IMG/VR virus record: IMGVR_UViG_3300030380_002313
Location: 1-41,934 of that record
Source: a virus
DNA: 41,934 bases
Strand: one strand, 5' to 3'
Position numbers and translations under genes: made by a program
Notes under the pieces: generated by a model
Database searches by the model: none
Seen by the model: the letters and a program-made list of their open reading frames with translations, nothing else
What the model was told of the DNA's origin: nothing
Shown: positions 1,291-41,934 of the stretch, piece by piece
Position numbering within the stretch: position 1 is the stretch's first letter
Layout of the letters: every line of letters starts with the position of its first letter

Positions 1291-1509
1291 TTAAATGCGG
1301 GGAGCGCGACGCGGCGCGGGATTCAACCGACGCTGCTGCTCTGCCTTGGCTTCGTCCAGGCTCCCCTCAATGCTTTGGCGACCTTTCATGCGCTCGTAGA
1401 GTTCATTTAGGCCACCACCTGGGAAAAAGATGGCGCGAAGACCGCGCTTCTTTTTCTTATCGCCCCCAAACTTGGGGTCTCGATACAGTTTTGATGGGAC
1501 GGCACACAT
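1291..1509 (-). CDS. Small basic protein of unknown function
   Basis: About 72 residues starting MCAVPSK, with a KKKKRGLRAIFFPGGGLNEL core and an arginine-rich tail. I chose the ATG at 1509 over the one six bases upstream because it overlaps the TGA of the preceding gene (TGATG) and has GGGAG about eight bases before it. The protein is strongly basic, has no membrane segment, and closes a run of four overlapping small basic genes between the lipoprotein and the capsid. I do not recognise a function; a virion-packaged or nucleic-acid-binding role is inference from charge and position only. Confidence 0.75.
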   Translation of the reverse strand: MCAVPSKLYRDPKFGGDKKKKRGLRAIFFPGGGLNELYERMKGRQSIEGSLDEAKAEQQRRLNPAPRRAPRI

Positions 1510-1763
1510 CACCATTTCTCCCGTGCAGCCCAGTAAGCCGCCGACATCTTTCCCTTAGATATGTTCTTGGCGTGCCGCGCACGGAATGATTTGTTTCGAG
1601 CGGATCCCTTAGGAGACCCCTTGACGCCTTGCTGACCAAAACGGATCAGCTTGACTTGATCGCCTGACTTAGCCAGGACAGCATGGGACTTGGTCTTGTG
1701 ACCGGGGGTTCTCTTGGGCTTGTTGTAGCCCGAGAACTTCTCACCGCCGCGCTCGATAGCCAT
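1509..1763 (-). CDS. Small basic conserved phage protein (DUF6321-like)
   Basis: 84 residues with the pattern MAIERGGEKFSGYNKPKRTP, then TKSHAVLAKSGDQVKLIRFG, QQGVKGSPKG, ARHAKNI and SAAYWAAREKW. From memory this matches a small conserved protein of marine T7-like phages (DUF6321); I cannot run the search. It is lysine and arginine rich and soluble. It starts a few bases after the stop of the gene at 1766-1927 and its stop overlaps the next start by TGATG, so translation is probably coupled. The function is unknown. Confidence 0.85.
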   Translation of the reverse strand: MAIERGGEKFSGYNKPKRTPGHKTKSHAVLAKSGDQVKLIRFGQQGVKGSPKGSARNKSFRARHAKNISKGKMSAAYWAAREKW

Positions 1764-5764: not shown

Positions 5765-6494
5765 AGGGTTCCCACAGCTTGACTGATTCCGTGTCTTCGT
5801 TCCAGTCCGAACAACGGAGAATACGGGCCATACGGGCGTTTAGCAACGCCTCCGACTCAGGTAGCTCGGACTTCTTGTAGGCACCTAAGACAGTCTCCCA
5901 GGACGGACCTTCTTTCTCCAGCAGGCGAGCGGCCCGCACCATGCCCATACCGGGGACACCCTTGTAGTTGTCCGTGCTGTCGCCCGCGATAGCCTGGGTG
6001 TAGAAGAAGAAGTCTGCTTCTTCCTCGGTCACAGTCACTACACCCTGCTCCTTCTTGTCAGGGTTCCAGTGCATACCGGGAACGCTCTTCAGGTCTTTGT
6101 CGATGGTGACAATGATGCTGTCTCTGTGCCGGGTGCCCAAGATGCCCATAACATCGTCAGCCTCCAAGTGGTCCCACCGGATCGCCCCCTGCTCTACGGT
6201 CCAGTCACGGAGAGCGTGGAAGATCAGGGGCTTGCGGCTAGTCCGGTTGGCCTTGTATGCGGGAAGAAGATCGTGGCGGAACGTCGGGCCTTTGCAGCTA
6301 ACGCAGACCGTCACATCTTTGCGGGACACGTTCAGATCCCGAGCAATCTCAGCAATCGCACAGACATAGTGTCCGCGCCCCTCGCGCATGTCCGCCGCGA
6401 TTGACCAGAGATCGTCTCCCCAATCACAGATGGTCTCCGCGTGCTGCGCCGCTCGATAGATGACGACATCGCCATCTACAAAAACTCTAGGCAT
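5745..6494 (-). CDS. 5'-3' exonuclease (T7 gp6-like, FEN family)
   Basis: 249 residues. It degrades host DNA, removes RNA primers and assists recombination. Metal-binding aspartates appear in order: VFVDGDVVIYRA near residue 8, the arch region FRHDLLPAYKANR near 95-107, HLEADDVMG near 130, VTIDKDLK near 150 and the helix-hairpin-helix part GDSTDNYKGVPGMG near 190. The length is shorter than T7 gp6 (300). It lies downstream of the DNA polymerase as in T7, separated only by the LAGLIDADG gene, whose stop it overlaps by eight bases. Confidence 0.93.
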   Translation of the reverse strand: MPRVFVDGDVVIYRAAQHAETICDWGDDLWSIAADMREGRGHYVCAIAEIARDLNVSRKDVTVCVSCKGPTFRHDLLPAYKANRTSRKPLIFHALRDWTVEQGAIRWDHLEADDVMGILGTRHRDSIIVTIDKDLKSVPGMHWNPDKKEQGVVTVTEEEADFFFYTQAIAGDSTDNYKGVPGMGMVRAARLLEKEGPSWETVLGAYKKSELPESEALLNARMARILRCSDWNEDTESVKLWEPYENLSA

Positions 6495-6945
6495 GATATT
6501 CTCCGTGCTTCAGTGTCTTAACTTGTGCTAGAAGTGATTCTCGGAACGGACCCGGCTCTACACGGCGGGCCTGAAGAATGATCTGTGCTTGGGCTTTCTT
6601 GACGTAAAGGTGGGGAATCAGGTCGATCATGCACTTCTCTGCGTTGTTGCCCGAAGCAGACCAGCGCCACAGTGGGCGACATGGGGAACTTATGGGTCGA
6701 ACGCTTCCACCCCAGCGAACCTGATACTCCTCTAGGATCCACGGGAAGACCGATACGATCTCGACCCGAGGAGTTCCTCCGCTAAACCTAACGCAGCCAT
6801 CTGCGTCCAGATACCCAGCTAAGTAGGCATCAGTGGGTTTCGGACCAGTTTGCTCCGACCCGCGCTTCCCCTGTGATGGGGCAACGTAGTCCGAGGATGT
6901 CCCCGGCTTCTTCGATTGACTGCACTGCGAGCTTTGCGGTGTCAT
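6487..6945 (-). CDS. LAGLIDADG-type homing endonuclease-like protein nested at polymerase 3' end
   Basis: 152 codons, of which the first about 38 overlap the DNA polymerase 3' end in another frame. The recognisable domain starts near residue 40 with YLAGYLDADGCVRF, a single LAGLIDADG motif, followed by a beta-strand segment VEIVSVFPWILEEYQVRWGG and a helical tail. One motif implies action as a homodimer. T7 has an HNH endonuclease (gp5.3) at the same place, downstream of DNA polymerase. No ATG exists downstream of 6945 before the motif, so either the overlap is translated or a rare start is used. A free-standing mobile endonuclease is the best reading; activity is not assured. Confidence 0.72.
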   Translation of the reverse strand: MTPQSSQCSQSKKPGTSSDYVAPSQGKRGSEQTGPKPTDAYLAGYLDADGCVRFSGGTPRVEIVSVFPWILEEYQVRWGGSVRPISSPCRPLWRWSASGNNAEKCMIDLIPHLYVKKAQAQIILQARRVEPGPFRESLLAQVKTLKHGEYHA

Positions 6946-11313: not shown

Positions 11314-13710
11314 TCAGCTAAAGAAATAAGGAGACTTAAGAACCAAAGAAACATCCAGATCCCCGTAACTAGGGATATTTGGAATAGCAATATCGGTTGG
11401 CAGTTGCGCCTGTAACTCTTTTATGAGGTTATCTAAAACATCATTAGAAAACAACTCATAAAAAGACTGACGAGTAGCTTCAGCCAATGCAGGACTATCT
11501 GCGGCTATAGAAGCAAATGAATCGTGGTTACAGGCGACATGCCTGACACCTAGTTGCTGCGCTAGCACCATGGTTCTCATCATGGCAGCAGCGTCTAAGC
11601 TATGGATAAAGTTGGGAGCAAAGGCCGACCGCATCTTACGTCGATCTACTTTACCAGTTGCAGCCCGTAGGCCAACCTGACGAAACTTCTCACCGATGCG
11701 TGTTCTAACGCAGTAGTGATTGTGGTCGCTATACCACTGCTTAATTGGCATACCGAGCGGGTTAGTCCACGTAATCGGTAGCCCTTTGTCGGCAAAGCAA
11801 GTAGCAGCCTCACTAAACCAATCCTGTCCCCGAGTAGTCGAAGAGACAACGGTCTCCATGGCGTCCCAAAGCAACTCCGTCAGGAACCAGTAAGGCTTTT
11901 CATCATCGTTTTCGCGTCGAGGATGAGGCTTACCGGAGGCATTAGTTTTATCTTCAGCCCACTCTTGGATATATTTGCTAGAGCTATGTCGCGTCGCGTT
12001 GTAAACCCGAGTCATTACAGGGCGCTTGCAGCACTTCCTGTCGATTCCAAAATCGAGCCACGCCTTGGCTAGTCTTTGGTTGGGGCCAGGACTCTGGGCA
12101 ACTGAGAAAAGACGCTTCTCTAGTTCAGACGCGACCAGCCCGTAGAGATCCTGCGGCACATCCGAGGGGGTCACATTCGTGGCTTGCGCTGCGGCGGTAT
12201 CGCGCAGCAACAAGGAGTAAATCTGGATGCCCGACTGCGTAGCATCCTGCTGAATTGGAAGAGTTGAGGGATGTAGGGGGTTGTCTAGGATGGCAACGTG
12301 GTCGATAGCCCAGGCCAAGAACTGCCATGGAGAACCTGCGGCCTCCCAATCTCGGCAGTCCAGTGGATCCTCAGCAATCTTCCGTAACCAAGACTCCTGA
12401 TCTTTGACCCAAGCTACCCGATCATCGAACGTCATCTTGTCCAGGCCAAACATGTTGGCTCCGTGGACTGCATGAGCACGTTTGGCAGATACCGATTCCA
12501 CCGGGGCACCCGAGGCAAACGTCAGAAGAGACTTGACGTAGTCCGACCCCTGCGGACTCAGGTAGTAGGTGACGGGATAAGCACGGCCTCTCCAGTCAAC
12601 CTGATGGCAGAACCAGAACTTTCGATCCAAGAACTGCTTGCAGATCCAGTGAAGGCGACTAGCAGCCAGCCTCTCAGATCCCCGTCGGTGGTTGGAGTCG
12701 TGGACAGCCCGCGCCTGTTTGCGCCATTCTTGACGGGCCTCTTTGTCGGTGTCGATGTTGGCAGGACGAGGCGGAATCGGAAGATCCTCGCGGATCGGAA
12801 GACCCGTAGCAGGCAAAGACTCCGTCCAGAGGTAGTCAAACATCTCCCAGATAGGAGTGTTGATCTTCCAGGGCGTCCTTTGGAGCATGTTGATCGACGT
12901 GTAAACGTCGGGCATGTCCGCATCCGTCAGGCTCTTGAGGTAGTCCCGGTCGGATGTCTTGACCAGAGCCGTCGAGTAGACGTTGAGGGTGTGGAATCCA
13001 CCCGACAGGGGGTCGATCCAGTCCAGAGGCTCCTCAACAAAGGGCATGTAGAGAGGCATCCGCCCCGCAGACAGGTCGTTCAGCGCCTCGATGTAGTCCA
13101 GAGAGGCCGGTCGGATCCGTAGCTCCTTCTTCTTTTTGTTGTTGACCGTGAATACCTCGATCAAATCGAAGTTCTCTGCGATCAACTCCAGCAGAACGAC
13201 ACCCGCAGAAACCCTTGTGTCCTCGGACCATGCAGGAATCTCCAGACCATGGATACTCATGGCCCGTAGAATGTGCCTGCGGCGACTGTCGTAGCCCGAG
13301 AAGTCCCCAGATCGGTTCAGAGCAGCCCGGAAGAAATGAGGGTGTTGCTTCTGGAAGCTGATGTAGCGGACCTCGTCCTCCAGCCGCCTCCCGATCATCG
13401 CAGCAGTCTTGGTGTAGCCCCTGTGCTTGCTCAGAGCGTCTAGGATCGTCTGTAGGGCCAGAACAGACACCACCCTATGCTCCAGCCCTTGGATAGCCAT
13501 TAGAGCCTTGTGGCGCCTCCCAGGGCTTCTCATGGCATCCTCGGTCCACTCCTTGATCTTTTCAGCCAAGGTGTTGGTCAGATGCTTGATGATCTTCTTG
13601 CTGCCTGGGGTCTGGGACTCGATGCCCCGCTCTCGATACTTGTGGTTCTTCCGAAGTTCTCGTTGACGACCTTGGTCGGCCATCTGTTGTTCATGCGACG
13701 CTTGATCCAT
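11314..13710 (-). CDS. Single-subunit DNA-dependent RNA polymerase (T7 gp1-like)
   Basis: About 798 residues from the ATG at 13710, which overlaps the preceding TGA (TGATG) and has GGAGG five bases before it; an upstream ATG 12 bases earlier contains that ribosome site and is less likely. Catalytic features: VDWRGRAYPVTYYL near 371, motif A QQDATQSGIQ (Asp489, T7 Asp537), motif B KCCKRPVMTRVY (Lys562, Tyr570, T7 Lys631 and Tyr639) and motif C HDSF (Asp730, T7 Asp812). It is 85 residues shorter than T7 gp1. It should transcribe middle and late genes from phage promoters, candidates for which lie at 14297-14357. Confidence 0.97.
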   Translation of the reverse strand: MDQASHEQQMADQGRQRELRKNHKYRERGIESQTPGSKKIIKHLTNTLAEKIKEWTEDAMRSPGRRHKALMAIQGLEHRVVSVLALQTILDALSKHRGYTKTAAMIGRRLEDEVRYISFQKQHPHFFRAALNRSGDFSGYDSRRRHILRAMSIHGLEIPAWSEDTRVSAGVVLLELIAENFDLIEVFTVNNKKKKELRIRPASLDYIEALNDLSAGRMPLYMPFVEEPLDWIDPLSGGFHTLNVYSTALVKTSDRDYLKSLTDADMPDVYTSINMLQRTPWKINTPIWEMFDYLWTESLPATGLPIREDLPIPPRPANIDTDKEARQEWRKQARAVHDSNHRRGSERLAASRLHWICKQFLDRKFWFCHQVDWRGRAYPVTYYLSPQGSDYVKSLLTFASGAPVESVSAKRAHAVHGANMFGLDKMTFDDRVAWVKDQESWLRKIAEDPLDCRDWEAAGSPWQFLAWAIDHVAILDNPLHPSTLPIQQDATQSGIQIYSLLLRDTAAAQATNVTPSDVPQDLYGLVASELEKRLFSVAQSPGPNQRLAKAWLDFGIDRKCCKRPVMTRVYNATRHSSSKYIQEWAEDKTNASGKPHPRRENDDEKPYWFLTELLWDAMETVVSSTTRGQDWFSEAATCFADKGLPITWTNPLGMPIKQWYSDHNHYCVRTRIGEKFRQVGLRAATGKVDRRKMRSAFAPNFIHSLDAAAMMRTMVLAQQLGVRHVACNHDSFASIAADSPALAEATRQSFYELFSNDVLDNLIKELQAQLPTDIAIPNIPSYGDLDVSLVLKSPYFFS

Positions 13711-14189
13711 CAGAACCTCCAAGTCTTGCGGTCAGCCTCGTCAATAATCCGGGTGACCTCTTCCCGAGACTTGGAGGTCTCACGCCAGGGAGTCCCCTTG
13801 GGCAGAACAGTTCCGTAGTTAGCTCGACGCTGCTCCCCTCGACGCTCCTGCTTCCGCTTGGTCCCGTTCTCCACCAGCATCTTGTGGATACATTCGGGGT
13901 CTCCGCAGGTCTTGCGCTTCTGCTGCTTGCCCCTGGGACAGCGGTAGACCTTGGCTCGTCGCCCGCACCCAGCAACACACTTGGCTTGCTTCTCAGAGTA
14001 TAGACGATTCCCAATCAGCTTCCGGGGAACAAAGTCCGATGGTAACGGGTCTTGGAGATACTTGGTGTCCAAGCCCTCCAAAGGATCGTCTTCATCAAAG
14101 AGACCTCCTTCGACCATGCTGGGATCTTGCGGAGCACCGGATTCAGAGTCAAGTCTATTCCGCTGGACATATGGAAGTATCTCTGTCAT
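13710..14189 (-). CDS. Zinc-binding protein of unknown function upstream of RNA polymerase
   Basis: 159 residues. The N-terminal half is acidic (LFDEDDPLEGLD); the centre has a cysteine cluster CVAGC, then CPRGK, TCGDPECIHK, consistent with one or two zinc sites, followed by a basic KRKQERRGEQRR stretch. It resembles a zinc-dependent nucleic-acid-binding or HNH-like protein, but no catalytic HNH pair is clear. It is the first gene of the minus-strand operon and overlaps the RNA polymerase gene, so it is probably expressed early. Function unknown. Confidence 0.78.
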   Translation of the reverse strand: MTEILPYVQRNRLDSESGAPQDPSMVEGGLFDEDDPLEGLDTKYLQDPLPSDFVPRKLIGNRLYSEKQAKCVAGCGRRAKVYRCPRGKQQKRKTCGDPECIHKMLVENGTKRKQERRGEQRRANYGTVLPKGTPWRETSKSREEVTRIIDEADRKTWRF

Positions 14190-20715: not shown

Positions 20716-20842
20716 CGAACCCCCTCTTATCAAAGGCGGCCAAGGCCGCAGTTCCGCCGATGTCACCAGTGCTGCCGGGTTTCTGTCAGTGCTTGCGGGT
20801 GTCTGTATTTTCTGGGTGTTGGTTTGGAGGCTGTGTGCATGA
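20708..20842 (+). CDS. 44-residue single-span membrane microprotein
   Basis: A GTG-started gene whose product is polar in its first 20 residues (MHNEPPLIKGGQGRSSADVT) and then a hydrophobic helix GFLSVLAGVCIFWVLVW followed by RLCA, consistent with an N-out or N-in single membrane span ending with a positive residue. It overlaps the gene before it by eight bases and the integrase start by four (ATGA), and it carries the GGAGG used by the integrase. It could be a small holin-like or exclusion protein; function unknown. Confidence 0.55.
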   Translation: MHNEPPLIKGGQGRSSADVTSAAGFLSVLAGVCIFWVLVWRLCA

Positions 20843-21645
20843 GCACCATCGATCAAATCTGTGACCTTGGGCTAGAGCACTACAAAGATACCCGCAGCGC
20901 CGAGGCTGCTCGCTCTCTGCTCAAGCATATCCGCAAGCTCAAGTCCCTGGATATCCGGGACATCTCCCTGTGGCGGGACAAGCTATCCGACCGCTACACA
21001 CCGAACACCGTCCGTCGGACAATGGGTATCCTGCGGGCCATGCTTGCTAAGGCGGTAGATTATGGCATCATCGACACCGCCCCCAAGCTGAAGCTACCCA
21101 GCGCCCCGGTAGGTAGGGTGGGGTATATCACCGAGGAGCAGGAGGTAGCCTTGTTAGATGCTATCATAAAGCAACGATCACGCGAGGCTTTGGATATCGT
21201 CGCCTTTCTGATAGATACCGGGCTGCGTATTGGCGAAGCCTTAGGGTGGGGTGGTAAGATCGTGGAGTCCCCAAAGGGTCCGATGATTACCATCGAGAAA
21301 ACTAAGACCGACCGAGCCAGGACCGTCCCGCTTACTGACCGGGCTGCGGAGATCGCTGGGCGCTACCGCCGTGGCTTCCGCATGAAATACGCTAGGTTCT
21401 ACAAGATCTGGCAGGCTGCTCGGGTGAAGCTAGGCCAGGAGAAGAACAAGGATTGGGTGCCGCACCTGCTGCGCCATACCTTCGCCTCTCGACTAGCCCA
21501 GCGGGGCGCTCCGATTGCCGTCATCTCTCAACTGCTGGGGCACCAGAACCTAGAGCAGACCATGGTCTACTCGCACCTGTCCCTCGACTGCCTCCAGCAG
21601 TCTATCGACCTCATCCGGGGCAGCGGTGACGAGGGCGGAAAGTAA
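20839..21645 (+). CDS. Tyrosine-type integrase / site-specific recombinase
   Basis: 268 residues from the ATG overlapping the previous stop, with GGAGG nine bases before. The N-terminal part (to about 85) is a SAM-like core-binding domain; the catalytic domain has Arg130 (TGLRIGE), Lys156 in the beta-hairpin, His209 and Arg212 (HLLRHTF), His235 (LGHQN) and the nucleophile Tyr244 (MVYSHL), so all catalytic residues are present. It should catalyse integration or another site-specific recombination. Integrases occur in some marine T7-like phages, but no clear attP or excisionase is visible here, so lysogeny is not proven. Confidence 0.93.
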   Translation: MSTIDQICDLGLEHYKDTRSAEAARSLLKHIRKLKSLDIRDISLWRDKLSDRYTPNTVRRTMGILRAMLAKAVDYGIIDTAPKLKLPSAPVGRVGYITEEQEVALLDAIIKQRSREALDIVAFLIDTGLRIGEALGWGGKIVESPKGPMITIEKTKTDRARTVPLTDRAAEIAGRYRRGFRMKYARFYKIWQAARVKLGQEKNKDWVPHLLRHTFASRLAQRGAPIAVISQLLGHQNLEQTMVYSHLSLDCLQQSIDLIRGSGDEGGK

Positions 21646-21946: not shown

Positions 21947-22208
21947 TGGGCAGAAATGGCGCAAACTGTCGGATCGTCTAGGCTTACAGGACAAAGATGT
22001 CGTTAGTCTGGGGGATTTACTAGAGGCAGTCGAGACCGCACTCGATAAAAAGCCCGAGTTGACGCAGACCATGCGGGGGATGGCGTGCGTTATATTGGAG
22101 ACTGACGACTTGTTTATTTTCTGCGAGTCAGCCATGCTGTTAGCTAGGGAAATCTGGGGAGATGATGCCCATATCCACGGGGGACATGACGATGAACAAA
22201 TGGACTAA
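21939..22208 (+). CDS. Small unknown protein
   Basis: 89 residues: MSDGQKWRKLSDRLGLQDKD, then LGDLLEAVETALDKKPELTQ and FIFCESAMLLAREIWGDDAH. It overlaps the metallopeptidase-like gene by eight bases at its start and the deaminase start at its end. Helical, acidic tail. No family recognised. Confidence 0.7.
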   Translation: MSDGQKWRKLSDRLGLQDKDVVSLGDLLEAVETALDKKPELTQTMRGMACVILETDDLFIFCESAMLLAREIWGDDAHIHGGHDDEQMD

Positions 22209-22647
22209 GCACTTCCTGCGTATCGCTGCGGAAGCAGGGTCTATGTCAAAGGATCCCACCACCCAGGTCGGGGCGGTGCTGGTGGTGGATAGACGGGTGG
22301 TAGGCACCGGGTTCAACGGGTTCCCTAGTCTCATCAGGGACACCCAGCGGCGCTTACAAGACAGGGAGACTAAGCTAAAGATGATTGTCCACGCAGAGAT
22401 GAACGCTCTGTTGGACGCAGGGCGGGAAGCTCGGGGATCTACCCTCTACCTGCATGGGTTCCAGGCTAGCCCGTGCCTCGATTGCACAAAGCACCTGATC
22501 CAAGCAGGGGTGCGGTCGATTGTGGCCTATGGCCCGCCACTACCAGAGCGTTGGGTCAAGGAGACAGACGAGTCCCGCGATCTGCTGCATGAGGCGGACA
22601 TCGACTTGACAGTATACTCTGCTACGCATAGTATTCTAGCTCTCTGA
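22192..22647 (+). CDS. dCMP deaminase-like enzyme
   Basis: 151 residues starting MNKWTKHFLRIAAEAGSMSK; the ATG at 22192, or one six bases earlier, fits family length better than the upstream in-frame ATG at 22162. Zinc-dependent cytidine/deoxycytidylate deaminase motifs are complete: HAEMNAL (ligand His, catalytic Glu) and SPCLDCTKHL (two Cys ligands). The GTGFNGFP and RLQDRETKLKMIV parts are typical of dCMP deaminases, which convert dCMP to dUMP for thymidylate supply. No thymidylate synthase is visible. It lies just before the deazaguanine genes, but its chemistry is on pyrimidines and need not be part of that pathway. Confidence 0.85.
   Translation: MNKWTKHFLRIAAEAGSMSKDPTTQVGAVLVVDRRVVGTGFNGFPSLIRDTQRRLQDRETKLKMIVHAEMNALLDAGREARGSTLYLHGFQASPCLDCTKHLIQAGVRSIVAYGPPLPERWVKETDESRDLLHEADIDLTVYSATHSILAL
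22606..22634 (+). promoter_or_regulatory. Sigma70-like promoter upstream of the deazaguanine genes
   Basis: A perfect TTGACA (22606-22611), 17-base spacer, then TAGTAT (22629-22634, four of six matches to TATAAT). It lies in the 3' end of the deaminase gene and ends 21 bases before the DpdA start at 22656, so a transcript would have a short leader. Host RNA polymerase could thus express dpdA, queC and queE early. It is a sequence match only. Confidence 0.45.
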
Positions 22648-22655
22648 GCTAGACT

Positions 22656-23294
22656 ATGCTGGTGATGCCGAGTAACAACACAGGGATCCTGGTCGGCTAC
22701 CTTGTCGGGCAGTATCCGGGGAAGATGGGCCACCTCTTCAGCCCCGAGGGGCTGCGTAAGACGCACGACTGGATGCCCTTCGCACTGGACAACGGCAAGT
22801 TCGCCTGCTGGAGCAGGGGCAAAGAGTGGGACGAGCAGGGCTATCGGGACATGCTGGCTGAGGTAGCCCAGCGAGATCAGCAGCCCATGTGGGCGCTGGT
22901 TCCTGACGCAGTGGCTAACCCGGAAGAGACCCGCAGGCTATGGGGCGTTTGGTTCCCTGTCATCAAGAGCTACGGATGGGATGTGGCCTTTGCTGTGCAG
23001 GATGGGATGACCAAGGACGATGTCCCCGAGGAGGCAGATGTCATCTTCATCGGTGGCTCCACCAAGTGGAAGTGGGGATCCATGCACCGCTGGTGCCAGG
23101 AGTTCCCCCGCGTCCACGTAGGTCGCGTTAATAGCCCCGCGAAACTGTGGGACTGTGATGAGTCTGGGGCGGAATCCTGCGACGGCACCGGGTGGTTCCG
23201 GGGCAACAAGAAGCAGACCCAGGGTCTCATTGACTACCTGCATGGTAGCTTTCACGGTGAGCCACGGCCTGGAGGGGCTACGTTATGGACCTAG
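22656..23294 (+). CDS. dpdA: DpdA-like DNA 7-deazaguanine transglycosylase
   Basis: 212 residues of the short phage branch of the tRNA-guanine transglycosylase family. DpdA enzymes exchange guanine in DNA for a 7-deazaguanine base. Visible motifs: ALDNGKFACW (Asp45), LVPDAVANPE (Asp84), FAVQDGMTKDDVP (Asp116), IFIGGSTKWKW, HVGRVNSPAKL and a family-like SCDGTGW near 174-180, where the aspartate is the expected nucleophile. The order VPDxV-xxQDG-GG-HVGRxNS-DGTG is as I remember it for phage DpdA2-type proteins such as that of mycobacteriophage Rosebush. The start may be here or three codons further in; the ribosome site is weak. It directly overlaps queC. The family call is good; the exact base it inserts is inference. 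Confidence 0.8.
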   Translation: MLVMPSNNTGILVGYLVGQYPGKMGHLFSPEGLRKTHDWMPFALDNGKFACWSRGKEWDEQGYRDMLAEVAQRDQQPMWALVPDAVANPEETRRLWGVWFPVIKSYGWDVAFAVQDGMTKDDVPEEADVIFIGGSTKWKWGSMHRWCQEFPRVHVGRVNSPAKLWDCDESGAESCDGTGWFRGNKKQTQGLIDYLHGSFHGEPRPGGATLWT

Positions 23295-23779
23295 TTCTTC
23301 TTAGTGGGGGGCATGACTCCGCTAACCTCATCCGCACGGCTAAGAAAGACGAGCAAGACTGCTGCGCTCTCTTCGTAGACTACGGTCAGCCCGCCGCCGC
23401 GAGGGAACTGGTGGCGGCTGTCAAGATCACGGACTACTTTGGGGTTCCTCTGATCCGGCGAACCATGCCTACCCCGGCTACCTCGGGGGTCGAGTGGCTA
23501 GGTCGGAACCTTGCCCTGATTGGTGTCGCCATGCCCGTAGCCTTGGAGCACAAGTGCAAGCGGATCCTGATCGGATGCACGGACCAGGATTACGAAAGGT
23601 TCCCGGACTGTCGTCAGGATTTCATCAACTCCCTCAATGCTGCCGCTGAGATCGGATACAACGTGCAGGTTGTAGCTCCACTAACTGTGCGGCCTAGTTA
23701 TATCGTCAAGGGAACGTGGTCCTGCTACGGCCCTGGCCCCCGCCCCTGCGGGGAATGCCCTAGCTGCAAGCAAGAGTAG
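23285..23779 (+). CDS. queC: QueC-like 7-cyano-7-deazaguanine synthase (short)
   Basis: 164 residues, against about 220-230 for cellular QueC. It keeps the PP-loop SGGHDS (7-12), the LFVDYGQPAAARELVAAV segment, CTDQDYERFPDCR, and a C-terminal zinc site of four cysteines, Cys147, Cys155, Cys158 and Cys161 (SCY then CGECPSC). QueC uses ATP to convert 7-carboxy-7-deazaguanine to preQ0 by way of an amide. The loss of about 60 residues is in the middle. It overlaps dpdA by ten bases and is followed by queE after one base, so the three form one unit. A variant that stops at the amide (ADG) is possible. Confidence 0.85.
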   Translation: MDLVLLSGGHDSANLIRTAKKDEQDCCALFVDYGQPAAARELVAAVKITDYFGVPLIRRTMPTPATSGVEWLGRNLALIGVAMPVALEHKCKRILIGCTDQDYERFPDCRQDFINSLNAAAEIGYNVQVVAPLTVRPSYIVKGTWSCYGPGPRPCGECPSCKQE

Positions 23780-23780
23780 A

Positions 23781-24365
23781 ATGTTCATCCACGAAACCTT
23801 TACTTCCTTCCAAGGGACCGGGCACCTGTCCGGTGTCCGTCAGTTCTTCGTCCGGTTTGCTGGGTGCAGCGTCAAGTGCCCCATCCGTTCAGAGTGTGAT
23901 GAGCCGAACGCTCTGACTCGCAGGGCGGCTCTGAAGGTGGATCCCGAGGAGATCATTCAGCAAGCCAAGCAAGCCGTAGGGCCACGGGGTTGGCTTCATG
24001 TCACCGGAGGGGAGCCTACTGACCAGCCTGAGGCACTCCAACTCCTGGTAATGAAGGCCCGTAGTGAGGGACTCTACGTCCATGTGCAAACCTCGGGTGT
24101 CCGCAGGGTTCCGGTGCAATGGGACTGGCTAACCGTCAGCCCCAAGGTGACCGAACCCCAACAGAGATTCGGCCAAGAGATAATCGTCATCGACGACGGC
24201 ACCGTAGAGACAGCTTGGTTGGACGAGCTTAAAGCCACGACCAACTACTGGTGCTACTACCTGTGTCCGTTGTGGGGCCGTGATGCCACCAGCACCGCAG
24301 ACTTGGCTGCTCGTAGCGGGTGGGATCTGACCTCGCAGATGCACAAGCACTACGGCATCAGCTAG
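23781..24365 (+). CDS. queE: QueE-like radical-SAM 7-carboxy-7-deazaguanine synthase
   Basis: 194 residues. It has the QueE-like start MFIHETFTSFQGTGHLSGVR, the aromatic/glycine pattern FFVRFAGCSVKC, and LHVTGGEPTDQ with the SAM-binding GGEP (76-79), then HVQTSG and a C-terminal VSPKV. Members convert CPH4 to 7-carboxy-7-deazaguanine. The cluster cysteines are spaced Cys29, Cys33, Cys39, that is CX3CX5C, not the usual CX3CX2C. Its stop codon overlaps, on the opposite strand, the stop of the terminase gene. Function by family; the altered cysteine spacing is observed directly. Confidence 0.85.
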   Translation: MFIHETFTSFQGTGHLSGVRQFFVRFAGCSVKCPIRSECDEPNALTRRAALKVDPEEIIQQAKQAVGPRGWLHVTGGEPTDQPEALQLLVMKARSEGLYVHVQTSGVRRVPVQWDWLTVSPKVTEPQQRFGQEIIVIDDGTVETAWLDELKATTNYWCYYLCPLWGRDATSTADLAARSGWDLTSQMHKHYGIS

Positions 24366-26059
24366 ATCGGGCGGGCAGTCACAAAGTTAGGGGCGGGCGG
24401 CTCTGCTGGCCCACCCACTGCACGCCGCAAGAACCCCTCGATCACCCTGCGCTGCCTCTCATCGTCCTCCGCCTGCATATGGCGGTCGGTGTCCCGAGCC
24501 ATAGCCCTCACCCAGAACTCGCACGCCATAGCCAGGGCATCCACCCGGTCGTCGTGACGTAGGGCACCACGGTCCCGAGTGATCCGGCTGATCTGGAAGC
24601 CAAGTAGACGGGACTGCTGCTCCTCACTGGTGTAGGTCTTGACTGACTCCCAATCCTCGATCCAAACCTTGCGGTTGAAGATCAGTTTGTGCGAGTTCAT
24701 CAGCGGCTCCAAGACATCACAGATCCGCCTCTCCTTCTGGATATGGTGGCGGACCCCCTCGATAGCGCAAGGGTAGGTAGATTGGAGCACGGGCACCAAC
24801 AGCGCCTCGAACATCCCTTGGCCGAAGTTCTCCTCGCAGAGAATGCGGGACACCTTGTTTCTCCTGGCGATCTCAGCCAGACGGGCCAGCACCTTGGCGT
24901 CGTAGCCCCCTTGGATACCGCCAGACTCCAGGACGAATAGCTGACCACCGTAGCTCGCCACTACAGAGTAAGCCGTCTCGTCGAGTCCTTTACCGGCTGG
25001 GTCTACCGACATGATTGCTCCTTCGTAGGCAGAAGTCTTACCTACTCTGTTGAGCGGGCGGTGGTAGTAGTCACCGTTGAACCCCGGACAACTAGGATCA
25101 GACCAGCGGAGATCGGGGTCGTTAGCCCAGACATACTTCTCGTAGCAGGTATCAAGGTCCAGGTCATCCACGATCAGGTCGTTGATCTTCAGCGGGTAGC
25201 GGTCGGCGTCCGCCATCGACTGGTCGAGCAAGAACTGCATGGCATAGCCAGTCTTGCCGTAGCCCTGCCGCCTGCGTTCCAGGTCTTCCAGGTCGAACCG
25301 CAGGGGATCTACCGGAGTGCCTACCTCTACCCCATCCGCGATCTTCTTGCGGATCATGGGGGCCAGCCGCTCCCCTTGGCTGGTCACGATCTTCTGACTA
25401 GGGATCTCCGACGGCCAGATGCGGACGCTATACCCACGGTTTGGCAGTTCATGCAGCAAGTCCTGCTCTGACTGCGGGGTGCCCAGATACATCACCCGAC
25501 CATCGGGCTTCAGGATAGCGTTAAACTCCTCGGTAGCCGAGGCAATCTTGTCGCGCATCGACTGCGTCGCGGAGTTCTGTTTGGTCACTACGTCGTCAGC
25601 AATGATGATGTCCGCGCGACCGCCTGTCAGTTGGGAGAAGATGCCCTTGCTAGTCAGTGAGGGAGAGTGCGAGGGCGGGGCTGGGCCTACATCAAAGGCG
25701 ACCTTGGAGTTCCGCTGGTCGTCCCGAGGTAGCAGGTGCTCCGTCAGTTCACCCATCTCATGTAAGAGACGGAGGGTAAACGTCGTGAAGTCATCCGCTC
25801 TGATCTTGCTACCCGAGACGACCTGGATCAGCTTGGTAGGATCCAGCAGCAGCGTCCAGACACAGAAGGCGGACGCGATGTAGCTCTTGCCAACCCCCCG
25901 GAAAGCCTCCACGACCACTCGGTCTCCGCCGTGCTGCATGAAGTCAGCGATGTCATACTGAACCGGGGTCGGATCAGGTAGACCGATGGCCTTCCATGAC
26001 AGATAGACGAAGTTCTTGAAGCCCGAGGGGCCGCTGAAGACTGCCGGGATATCCTGCAT
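24362..26059 (-). CDS. Terminase large subunit (T7 gp19-like)
   Basis: 565 residues, near T7 gp19 (586). The N-terminal ATPase has a packaging Walker A, VEAFRGVGKSYIASAF (53-59 FRGVGKS), and a Walker B-type IIADDVVT, and the C-terminal RNase H-like nuclease has MSVDPAGKGLDETAYSV and later acidic residues near LRHDDRVDALA. It pumps DNA into the prohead and cuts concatemers. It is the last gene of the minus-strand late operon and meets queE tail to tail with overlapping stops. Confidence 0.96.
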   Translation of the reverse strand: MQDIPAVFSGPSGFKNFVYLSWKAIGLPDPTPVQYDIADFMQHGGDRVVVEAFRGVGKSYIASAFCVWTLLLDPTKLIQVVSGSKIRADDFTTFTLRLLHEMGELTEHLLPRDDQRNSKVAFDVGPAPPSHSPSLTSKGIFSQLTGGRADIIIADDVVTKQNSATQSMRDKIASATEEFNAILKPDGRVMYLGTPQSEQDLLHELPNRGYSVRIWPSEIPSQKIVTSQGERLAPMIRKKIADGVEVGTPVDPLRFDLEDLERRRQGYGKTGYAMQFLLDQSMADADRYPLKINDLIVDDLDLDTCYEKYVWANDPDLRWSDPSCPGFNGDYYHRPLNRVGKTSAYEGAIMSVDPAGKGLDETAYSVVASYGGQLFVLESGGIQGGYDAKVLARLAEIARRNKVSRILCEENFGQGMFEALLVPVLQSTYPCAIEGVRHHIQKERRICDVLEPLMNSHKLIFNRKVWIEDWESVKTYTSEEQQSRLLGFQISRITRDRGALRHDDRVDALAMACEFWVRAMARDTDRHMQAEDDERQRRVIEGFLRRAVGGPAEPPAPNFVTARPI

Positions 26060-40034: not shown

Positions 40035-41905
40035 TACTGGCCTCCTTCGTAGGGGTCCGTGACCTGGGGAGTATCAAACGTCACGTTGTATACGTTTGAG
40101 TCAATCTCCCAGAATGTAGATTGGTTTTCTGCGGTAACGCGGGTGCCACCTACAGTCATGTTTCTGATCGTGACATTGCTCGCGGTGTTGTTTTCATCGT
40201 GGTCATAAAGACCCGACTTGTTAGGCGGACTGCCTTCAATAAAGATGTTATCGAAAACAAAGAACCCGGTATTACCGTGCAGGTCTCTTTGGCTTCCAAT
40301 GTTTGCAGCGCCGCCAAAAGGATAGCGGAGGTTTCCTAAGCAAATTGGGCGACCAACGCAGGCAGTATCCCAGATGCGAATGTTCTTCAAGATAACGTGA
40401 CGAACACCCATAGTTGTCTGGTCTTCTTCCGAAGCAGGGTCGCCATCAAAGCCATCAGTCAACGACTTGATAATACAGCGAGCACCCAAAGCTGGGTCGG
40501 GAGCGTTTCCCGAAGTGTTCTGCTCGCCGCCTTGATCGGCTTCTGCTAAATACAGGATGTCAATATCATCGACCATCACTCTGTATTGGTCTGTAGTTTC
40601 AAAAGACTGCGGCCTTGCCCCAAAGTGAATAGATGAGTTGGCCGTCTGAACGATGAAGGTTCTAGTGGCATAAAGCGGGCCTGCGCTGCGGTGCTTTAGC
40701 TTGATGCCGTCGTCCCCGGCAAACATGTAGCTGTCGCGAACAAAACCTAGTTCGCCAGTAGATCGAGAGACAGGCATAAACCCATCTGCGTTAAACGTCC
40801 AAGGGGATATAAACGAGCACTGGTTGAAGTCTCCGATGCCCTGAACATTGCAGTAGAACGCAGGCTTAAGGATGGTTGTGCCGAAGACTCTGTTGGTCGT
40901 AGGCATTCGCACGTTTCCCGGCCCAAAGACACGACCATCTATTGCAACGTAAGGAATTAGACTATTATACTGTCCTGCGCTCGTGTCTACGTCTGCCCGA
41001 CGGATGTAGGTTCCCGACAGGATCCCCGGTCCCTCAATGCTGACGTTCTGGGTCATTGCAGTCCCATCGGTAGGAACTGACGCTCCTACGTGGCGCCGGA
41101 GATCCAGACTCCCAATAACTACAGCGCCTTCGTCAAAGTAGAGCGTGGTATTTGACTCAACCCGAAACCCCCGTCCGATGTGGTGGATGCCTCGGGAGAA
41201 GTATAGAGTCCCTCCAGTTAGGTGGTCCATCACGGACATCGTCAGCGTCCCGGTGCCCGCCGAGCTAAACTGAATGGAGATGCCATCCGAGTCAACCAGA
41301 GCCAAGATGCTATCGCTGACAGCTACGGCTACCACATCGTGGTTGGCCTTCAAAGTTCCTTGACTGGTAGCCGGTAGGGTGCCTGTAGTGTTCAAGGCAA
41401 CGCGCTGGTAATCGCCCGTAGGGATCCCGTGGTTGCTGACCGTGATGACGTTGAGTCCAGTGTCTACGCTAGATACGGGAAGTTCTCTAGTTGTCCAGTC
41501 GGTATGGGTGGTAGCTAGTTTTGGCTTAGGTCTCTGCCCAATGACTGACAGCGTATGCTTACGGTCCCCGTTGATCTCCACATACAAAGTTGTATTCGGA
41601 ATGACCGTTAGGAAGAGAGATCCGTAAGCAATCCGCTGAGTAAACCGAGTGTTCTTAGGGTATACCGTGGCAGATGTGATATCAGTTCCGTCTGCCTTCG
41701 AGACAACTAGAGTAACTTCCTCGTCTGATCCGTATTTAACCCAGGAGTGCTCCACGGAATCGTTTTTAGTCCAAACGATTGTGTCCATGTCTACCGTCTC
41801 AGTATGACCGTAGACAAAAGACTCCGTGTTGTTGATCTTTGCGGTAAAGCGGGTGCTGCGATACGACTCGTCGCCGGGGCCAGCACTATCTATTTCAACA
41901 ACCAT
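40034..41905 (-). CDS. Beta-helix tailspike with GH28/GH49-like glycanase features
   Basis: 623 residues. After a beta-rich N-terminal part (about 1-235) comes a right-handed beta-helix (LYFSRGIHHIGRGFRVESNT, TLYFDEGAVVIGSL, GPGILSGTYI). In the helix the acidic set NADGF (Asp375) and GDDGIKLK (Asp398, Asp399) matches the Asp...Asp-Asp pattern of polygalacturonase (GH28) and dextranase (GH49) active sites, while the GH28 GHG motif is missing. It probably degrades a host capsule or exopolysaccharide. Its place directly after capsid and before tail tube A is where T7 has none. AGGAGG precedes the start. Substrate unknown. Confidence 0.75.
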   Translation of the reverse strand: MVVEIDSAGPGDESYRSTRFTAKINNTESFVYGHTETVDMDTIVWTKNDSVEHSWVKYGSDEEVTLVVSKADGTDITSATVYPKNTRFTQRIAYGSLFLTVIPNTTLYVEINGDRKHTLSVIGQRPKPKLATTHTDWTTRELPVSSVDTGLNVITVSNHGIPTGDYQRVALNTTGTLPATSQGTLKANHDVVAVAVSDSILALVDSDGISIQFSSAGTGTLTMSVMDHLTGGTLYFSRGIHHIGRGFRVESNTTLYFDEGAVVIGSLDLRRHVGASVPTDGTAMTQNVSIEGPGILSGTYIRRADVDTSAGQYNSLIPYVAIDGRVFGPGNVRMPTTNRVFGTTILKPAFYCNVQGIGDFNQCSFISPWTFNADGFMPVSRSTGELGFVRDSYMFAGDDGIKLKHRSAGPLYATRTFIVQTANSSIHFGARPQSFETTDQYRVMVDDIDILYLAEADQGGEQNTSGNAPDPALGARCIIKSLTDGFDGDPASEEDQTTMGVRHVILKNIRIWDTACVGRPICLGNLRYPFGGAANIGSQRDLHGNTGFFVFDNIFIEGSPPNKSGLYDHDENNTASNVTIRNMTVGGTRVTAENQSTFWEIDSNVYNVTFDTPQVTDPYEGGQ

Positions 41906-41934
41906 ACGGAGCCTCCTGAGCTATTCAAAGATTA
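41836..41934. repeat. 99-bp terminal direct repeat, right copy
   Basis: Identical to 1-99. It contains the tailspike start and the capsid stop. Joining the copies restores an unbroken capsid-tailspike gene junction with 26 bases between stop and start, which supports a circular map. Confidence 0.95.

Follow-up and report, generated by a model that had tools for sequence, protein, structure and literature searches.

Three adjoining genes of a T7-like phage, encoding a short DpdA-type guanine transglycosylase candidate, a QueC and a QueE, probably constitute a compact, host-fed cassette for 7-deazaguanine modification of DNA, one that sits in an exchangeable slot of the genome and would confer resistance to restriction. 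T7-like phages are textbook examples of small phages that defeat restriction by means of Ocr inhibitors or site avoidance, not by base hypermodification.

A three-gene cassette in a T7-like genome

The window covers the virus record in full (41,934 nucleotides). Its first 99 bases are identical to its last 99 (a direct repeat at 1–99 and 41836–41934), and with this end repeat the record forms a closed circle of 41,835 bp. The minus strand carries a replication set – a single-subunit RNA polymerase of T7-like type (11314–13722; phrog_414, 2.9e-214), which marks the type of phage, a T7-type SSB, a primase/helicase, a DNA polymerase and an exonuclease – together with a structural set comprising the portal, the T7 capsid-assembly protein, the major capsid protein, tail tubular proteins, internal virion proteins, tail fibre and TerL. 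The series follows the T7 order, circularly permuted; by gene set and gene order the phage is T7-like (Autographiviridae-like). A 10-kb block on the plus strand holds a tyrosine integrase (20824–21645, recognized by family matches), a SprT-like gene, a dCMP deaminase gene and the cassette. Given the integrase, this T7-like phage is probably temperate. No tRNA genes were found in the window, and hence there is no clue to the host from tRNA; a host call from TerL was rejected because the TerL relatives in genomes, mostly on Pelagibacteraceae contigs, are 45–50% identical and thus too distant. A possible LAGLIDADG-type endonuclease gene (6487–6945, minus strand; a weak match, E 0.006) adjoins the DNA polymerase gene.

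The cassette spans 22656–24365 on the plus strand, where three open reading frames, all intact, lie back to back: dpdA (22656–23294, 212 aa), queC (23285–23779, 164 aa) and queE (23781–24365, 194 aa). The first two overlap by 10 bases (23285–23294) and queE begins after a gap of one base, coordinates that match exactly the arrangement described in the original prediction. To the left, the dCMP deaminase gene (22162–22647, plus strand) lies 8 bp upstream of dpdA; to the right, terL (24362–26059, minus strand) stands tail to tail with queE, with an overlap of four bases. An RNA hairpin on the plus strand (22624–22663; −20.9 kcal/mol, z −2.96) holds the stop codon of the deaminase gene close to the loop and, within the 3' arm, the codon at which dpdA starts; it could possibly couple translation of dpdA to that of the gene upstream. 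Across the three genes dN/dS against relatives is about 0.03–0.22 in comparisons with unsaturated dS. Purifying selection on all three genes, together with recurrence of the trio in other phages, argues that the cassette is not a product of chance.

Identity of the three proteins

That the second gene encodes a QueC, albeit a divergent one, is certain from its family and its solved relatives. The protein passes the Pfam cut-off (PF06508, 6.9e-28, 98 bits), and the closest solved sequences are QueC (3bl5 at 6e-14 and another QueC structure at 1e-13). Its motifs were scored against the 2026 catalytic signature of canonical QueC (PMC13329287). Retained are the SGGxDS loop (S7GGHDS12), the zinc cysteines C147, C155, C158 and C161 (the first gap being seven residues rather than eight), the Tyr adjoining the first of these, Y33, Q35 and E40 of YxQxHxxE, R74 and N75 of VPxRN, and YPDC in the form FPDC. 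Missing are the His of YxQxHxxE, the VP of VPxRN and a segment preceding the zinc site. Three residues with a reported essential role in the E. coli enzyme (Y35, R99 and Y189) are present; Y131 of E. coli QueC is F in the phage protein, and E. coli Y131F retains partial activity (PMC13329287).

The identity of the QueE, also a divergent member, is equally certain. It matches phrog_2076 ('QueE-like', 1.1e-21) and, above cut-off, PF04055; the solved sequences nearest to it are QueE (6nhl, 2.8e-10; 4njg, 1.2e-8), and its AF2 model reaches a TM-score of 0.81 to B. multivorans QueE. By sequence and model together the closest solved relatives are the QueE of E. coli, B. multivorans and B. subtilis. 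With the canonical enzymes (E. coli 6NHL, B. multivorans 4NJG) it shares the fold, as predicted, along with Q11, R25, three cysteines, GGEP, SPK and Q.HK. It differs from them in the spacing of the cluster motif, CX3CX5C (C29, C33, C39), which matches neither of the textbook forms CX3CX2C and CX14CX2C, and in having QGTG in place of QGEG and CDE in place of CDT. In E. coli QueE, Q13, E15 and R27 bind substrate and T40 binds Mg (PMC11142719). The phage protein keeps Q11 and R25, while E15 is replaced by T13 and the Mg-binding T40 by E41: a reciprocal exchange.

A comparison of 43 phage QueE sequences places this exchange in context. R25 and the three cysteines are invariant and Q11 is nearly so. 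CX5C spacing occurs in 10 of the 43 and CX5CX6C in 12 more, which makes phage QueE broader than the textbook motif. Positions 13 and 41 co-vary: all 33 sequences spaced X2, X6 or X9 pair E with T/S, and nine of the ten X5-spaced sequences pair T/S at 13 with E at 41 (the tenth, L103, has E with E), the counts being of sequences and not of independent events. The window QueE belongs to an odd subclass marked by CX3-4CX5C cysteines and by T/E in place of E/T. Since the two groups would be kept, in swapped places, around substrate and Mg2+, the enzyme likely catalyses the usual reaction; a changed product is possible. Many loci among L112–L175 (for example L125 and L142) make up a sizeable group of QueE from environmental phages with the CX5CX6C motif, and the QueE of L105–L107 has CX4CX9C.

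The short DpdA is matched by no Pfam or NCBIfam family. PF01702 (Pfam TGT) matched none of 51 short DpdA relatives at E ≤ 0.1, and a sequence search of the PDB gave chance matches only. A tblastn search led to phage genes whose deposited name is 'DpdA-like tRNA-guanine transglycosylase', at about 32% identity (E 5e-11 to 4e-12), and 23 of the 51 relatives individually match phrog_887 (queuine tRNA-ribosyltransferase). Aligned by hhalign to six long phage DpdA, that of 9g included, the short DpdA profile scored 93.6% (E 2.1e-7), against 4.4% for a ribulose-epimerase control consisting of a single sequence; the profile also recovers a long phage DpdA at 1.6e-4. Single-sequence hhalign to E. coli TGT failed, a result that we discount because a bona fide long phage DpdA fails likewise. 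The missing PF01702 match lowers the sequence-family claim and not the fold-level one, since DpdA2, too, escaped a PSI-BLAST search started from 9g DpdA and was recognized by HHpred (PMC6884629).

The AF2 model of the short DpdA is a TIM barrel (mean pLDDT 94). In a search of the PDB its highest TM-scores are to TGT (0.60–0.61, compared with 0.48–0.57 for ribulose epimerase), and bacterial DpdA (7ui4) is also among the matches; a library of viral models returned phage 'queuine tRNA-ribosyltransferases' and a protein of Vibrio phage nt-1. Ranked by Foldseek E-value, generic TIM barrels such as ribulose epimerase come ahead of TGT, and for this reason the predicted fold is supportive rather than decisive. 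The protein carries the TGT-like motifs D45-N-G, P83-D84, Q115-D-G, G133-G134, H154 and D176, the last five invariant in the alignment of 51 relatives and D45-N46 nearly so. They stand in register with DSG, D, H-x-G, LGG, HG and CD of long (9g-type) phage DpdA. By analogy with TGT, D45, D84, Q115, G133-G134, H154 and D176 would supply the catalytic Asp pair and the base-recognition residues. Bacterial DpdA and TGT share the TIM-barrel fold and the order of active-site motifs; compared with these the short DpdA is about half the length and has no detectable Pfam TGT match.

Fold, profile and motifs together support membership of the TGT/DpdA superfamily. All three assignments made in the original prediction accordingly stand, those of QueC and QueE at the level of family HMMs and that of DpdA through structure search and profile–profile matching to long DpdA, there being no Pfam or NCBIfam match. 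Further DpdA subfamilies, DpdA3 and DpdA4, were reportedly defined in a 2023 NAR study. Judged against a comparison set of long phage DpdA, the short DpdA appears to be a distinct subfamily outside Pfam and NCBIfam.

Recurrence and an exchangeable slot

HMMs run over 253 fetched loci, with blastx as a check, showed that the short DpdA repeatedly adjoins que genes in other phages. Besides the window, at least four contigs have the trio, and the short DpdA turns up in at least six other T7-like contigs; at least five T7-like contigs, most of them with que genes, have it at positions that differ from that in the window. The expectation that such a set is unusual in a T7-like genome thus holds as rarity and not as uniqueness. 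On a 46-kb contig of a different phage (L001) the three genes stand in the same order, with 71%, 50% and 70% identity to the window; no FolE or QueD was found on this contig either, so the three-gene form recurs.

In T7-like contigs that combine the short DpdA with T7-type RNA polymerase and replication genes the arrangements vary: RNA polymerase, primase, queE, queC, dpdA and DNA polymerase in L102; primase, dpdA, queE, queC and DNA polymerase in L233; queE, queC, dpdA and RNA polymerase in L238 and L239; queE, dpdA and RNA polymerase in L251; and dpdA and RNA polymerase in L245. In L228 dpdA, queD, queE and folE lie between primase and DNA polymerase (L228:3313–5354) with no queC in the stretch, which makes this phage a candidate for CDG-type DNA. 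A quick tree of DpdA, on which gain and loss are indistinguishable, requires the T7-like label to change at least four times along branches with good support. Together with the differing positions, the tree suggests that T7-like phages probably gained or exchanged the short DpdA more than once.

A short DpdA was found in 24 of 50,697 deposited phage records; going by the size, host and annotation given there, none of these is a cultured T7-like phage. Matches to que genes in the records were sampled and not exhausted. Variovorax phage VPv64 (43 kb, with all five genes) was considered as a cultured T7-like carrier and rejected, models of the T7-type RNA polymerase, primase and TerL being unmatched. 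A separate observation concerns an 84-aa basic protein encoded near the capsid gene of the window (1509–1763, minus strand): a homologue 74–76% identical (L003:12826–13095) sits close to the dpdA–queC–queE cassette in the otherwise different L002–L004.

Sister phages with TerL about 92% identical to that of the window allow the slot to be read from the dCMP deaminase gene to terL, its constant left and right flanks. L008 has no gene between the two (about 136 bp); it is an exact empty site, with the sequence of L012 minus the methylase. In L012 and L014, and in L011 as far as the contig reaches, the slot is taken by a C5-cytosine DNA methylase (L012:2589–3335, PF00145 3e-32; L011:6686–7432, 1e-32; L014:about 1120–1841). 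In L009 and L010 dpdA is kept and is followed by a scar, in which ATGGACCTA, the first three codons of queC, is joined to ATCAACTAG, the last codons of queE; the same ATCGG junction and terL follow. On these contigs, which are fragments and speak for the slot, the scar is best read as deletion of queC–queE from a three-gene ancestor with dpdA retained. Between the sister dpdA and that of the window dN/dS is 0.07 over the 150 codons available.

These alternatives in sister phages – a C5-cytosine methylase, dpdA alone with a deletion scar, or nothing – are new here. Exchange of the cassette with a DNA methylase provides the strongest hint that its job is modification of DNA. Two details of the slot may be added. 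The methylase reading frame of L014 is split between two ORFs, and at the slot edge of L008 and L012, after the dCMP deaminase gene and before terL or the methylase, there is a region of about 100 bp with an inverted repeat (GCGACCAGC...GCTGGTCGC) that is not seen there in the window.

Precursor supply, product and meaning

FolE (PF01227) and QueD (PF01242) gave no match in the complete genome, while control genomes were matched; QueF and the preQ0 transporter YhhQ are likewise absent, again with working controls. The closed circle makes these absences meaningful, and the earlier view that the genome lacks the first two steps is correct. With FolE and QueD required for a complete preQ0 pathway and absent from this phage, we infer that the host supplies the precursor through its own enzymes.

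The proposed scheme rests on the established route from precursor to preQ0 to exchange in DNA (PMC6884629). Host FolE and QueD would make 6-carboxytetrahydropterin (CPH4), which phage QueE would convert to 7-carboxy-7-deazaguanine; phage QueC, with ATP and ammonia, would carry this through the amide ADG to preQ0. After replication the short DpdA, a predicted TIM-barrel transglycosylase, would swap selected guanines of the phage DNA for preQ0, and the modified DNA would resist host restriction enzymes, all from a slot in which sister phages use a cytosine-C5 methyltransferase. We take preQ0 as the default product; ADG or CDG may be made instead.

Known systems provide both precedent and contrast. 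Phages 9g, CAjan and Rosebush, which have the full preQ0 set, likewise combine a DpdA-type transglycosylase with QueC and QueE in one gene run (PMC6884629), and the 9g DpdA was shown to insert deazaguanine (Nat Commun 2019, PMC6884629); preQ0-type bases directed against restriction are expected of the window cassette as of theirs. These phages are larger (56.7 kb for 9g, 59.7 kb for CAjan) and carry FolE, QueD and a long DpdA (317 aa in 9g), whereas the window phage has QueC and QueE only, with a 212-aa DpdA, in a 41.8-kb T7-like genome. A third group has DpdA only (Mycobacterium phage Orion and Salmonella phage 7-11; PMC6884629) and would need host precursors: L009 and L010 appear to be of this kind, to which the window phage adds the last two enzymes of synthesis. 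The same short DpdA family occurs in StevieRay-type mycobacteriophages and in Arthrobacter phages (Sonali gp81, Aoka gp40), at about 30–32% identity. Sonali (L093) differs in that queC and queE are not directly adjacent to the short DpdA and in having a second, long DpdA (gp87), alongside queC, queD and queE; its two kinds of DpdA may have different targets.

Several points count against the cassette reading. The short DpdA may have a different job in Sonali, where it accompanies a long one; Pfam TGT and Foldseek E-values do not single out TGT; QueE is without equivalents of E15 and T40, and QueC without the conserved His and VP. Moreover, hosts that carry QueD usually have QueE and QueC as well, and the purpose of the phage copies is not obvious.

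The alternative that survives best, unlikely as we judge it, retains the pathway and changes the base: QueC would stop at the amide, or DpdA would prefer an earlier intermediate, and ADG or CDG would enter the DNA. The shortened QueC, with its missing motif residues and an F at the position of Y131, is consistent with this, as are L237, L242, L244, L246 and L251, which pair the short DpdA with queE and have no queC on the fetched stretch; a phage without QueC was earlier suggested to use the QueC substrate (PMC6884629). Against this, the three essential E. coli residues and the four zinc cysteines are all kept, and characterized QueC enzymes proceed all the way to preQ0.

It is improbable that QueE and QueC serve queuosine in host tRNA, or preQ0 supply, while the short DpdA-like protein modifies RNA or another non-DNA target. 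TGT has a zinc-binding tRNA-contact part beyond the barrel; the 212-aa protein stops soon after the barrel and has no space for it. The phage has no QueF, sisters have a DNA methyltransferase in place of the cassette, and dpdA was kept in sisters after loss of queC–queE. What speaks for an RNA target is that TGT represents the ancestral function of the fold; in addition, phages that carry que genes but lack DpdA have been suggested to raise Q levels in tRNA (PMC6884629).

More improbable still is a protein-modification or counter-defence device in which QueC acts like Cap9 of type IV CBASS and attaches deazaguanine to protein. The phage QueC is minimal like Cap9, which is its third solved relative (1e-8) and likewise has no conserved His in YxQxHxxE, and the PADLOC QueC model matches at 1.6e-23; true QueC structures nevertheless match better, as does Pfam QueC, and the neighbours are DpdA and QueE with no CBASS genes. 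Finally, decay of a transferred cassette, suggested by three proteins shorter than their textbook relatives and by sisters that lost queC–queE, we reject as highly improbable: frames are intact, starts coupled, catalytic residues largely kept and dN/dS low, and equally short forms in relatives with saturated synonymous divergence mark the shortness as old and stable.

Host-fed modification of DNA by the cassette is thus the reading that we prefer. A bolder proposal, which we advance tentatively and consider rather doubtful, is that T7-like phages run a distinct minimal deazaguanine system, with a new short DpdA subfamily and an exchanged-ligand CX3-4CX5C QueE, that its base is perhaps not preQ0, and that in a fixed anti-restriction slot it is swapped as a module for cytosine methyltransferases. 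Through its swapped ligands, the QueE subclass puts to the test present views of the way Mg2+ guides the radical reaction. If the cassette functions as proposed, its three genes and 1.7 kb would be among the smallest ways to deazaguanine DNA, using host precursors, and would offer a handy means to label or protect DNA. Near-identical phages whose slot is filled by the cassette, by a methylase or by a remnant of one gene, or is empty, constitute a clean natural experiment.
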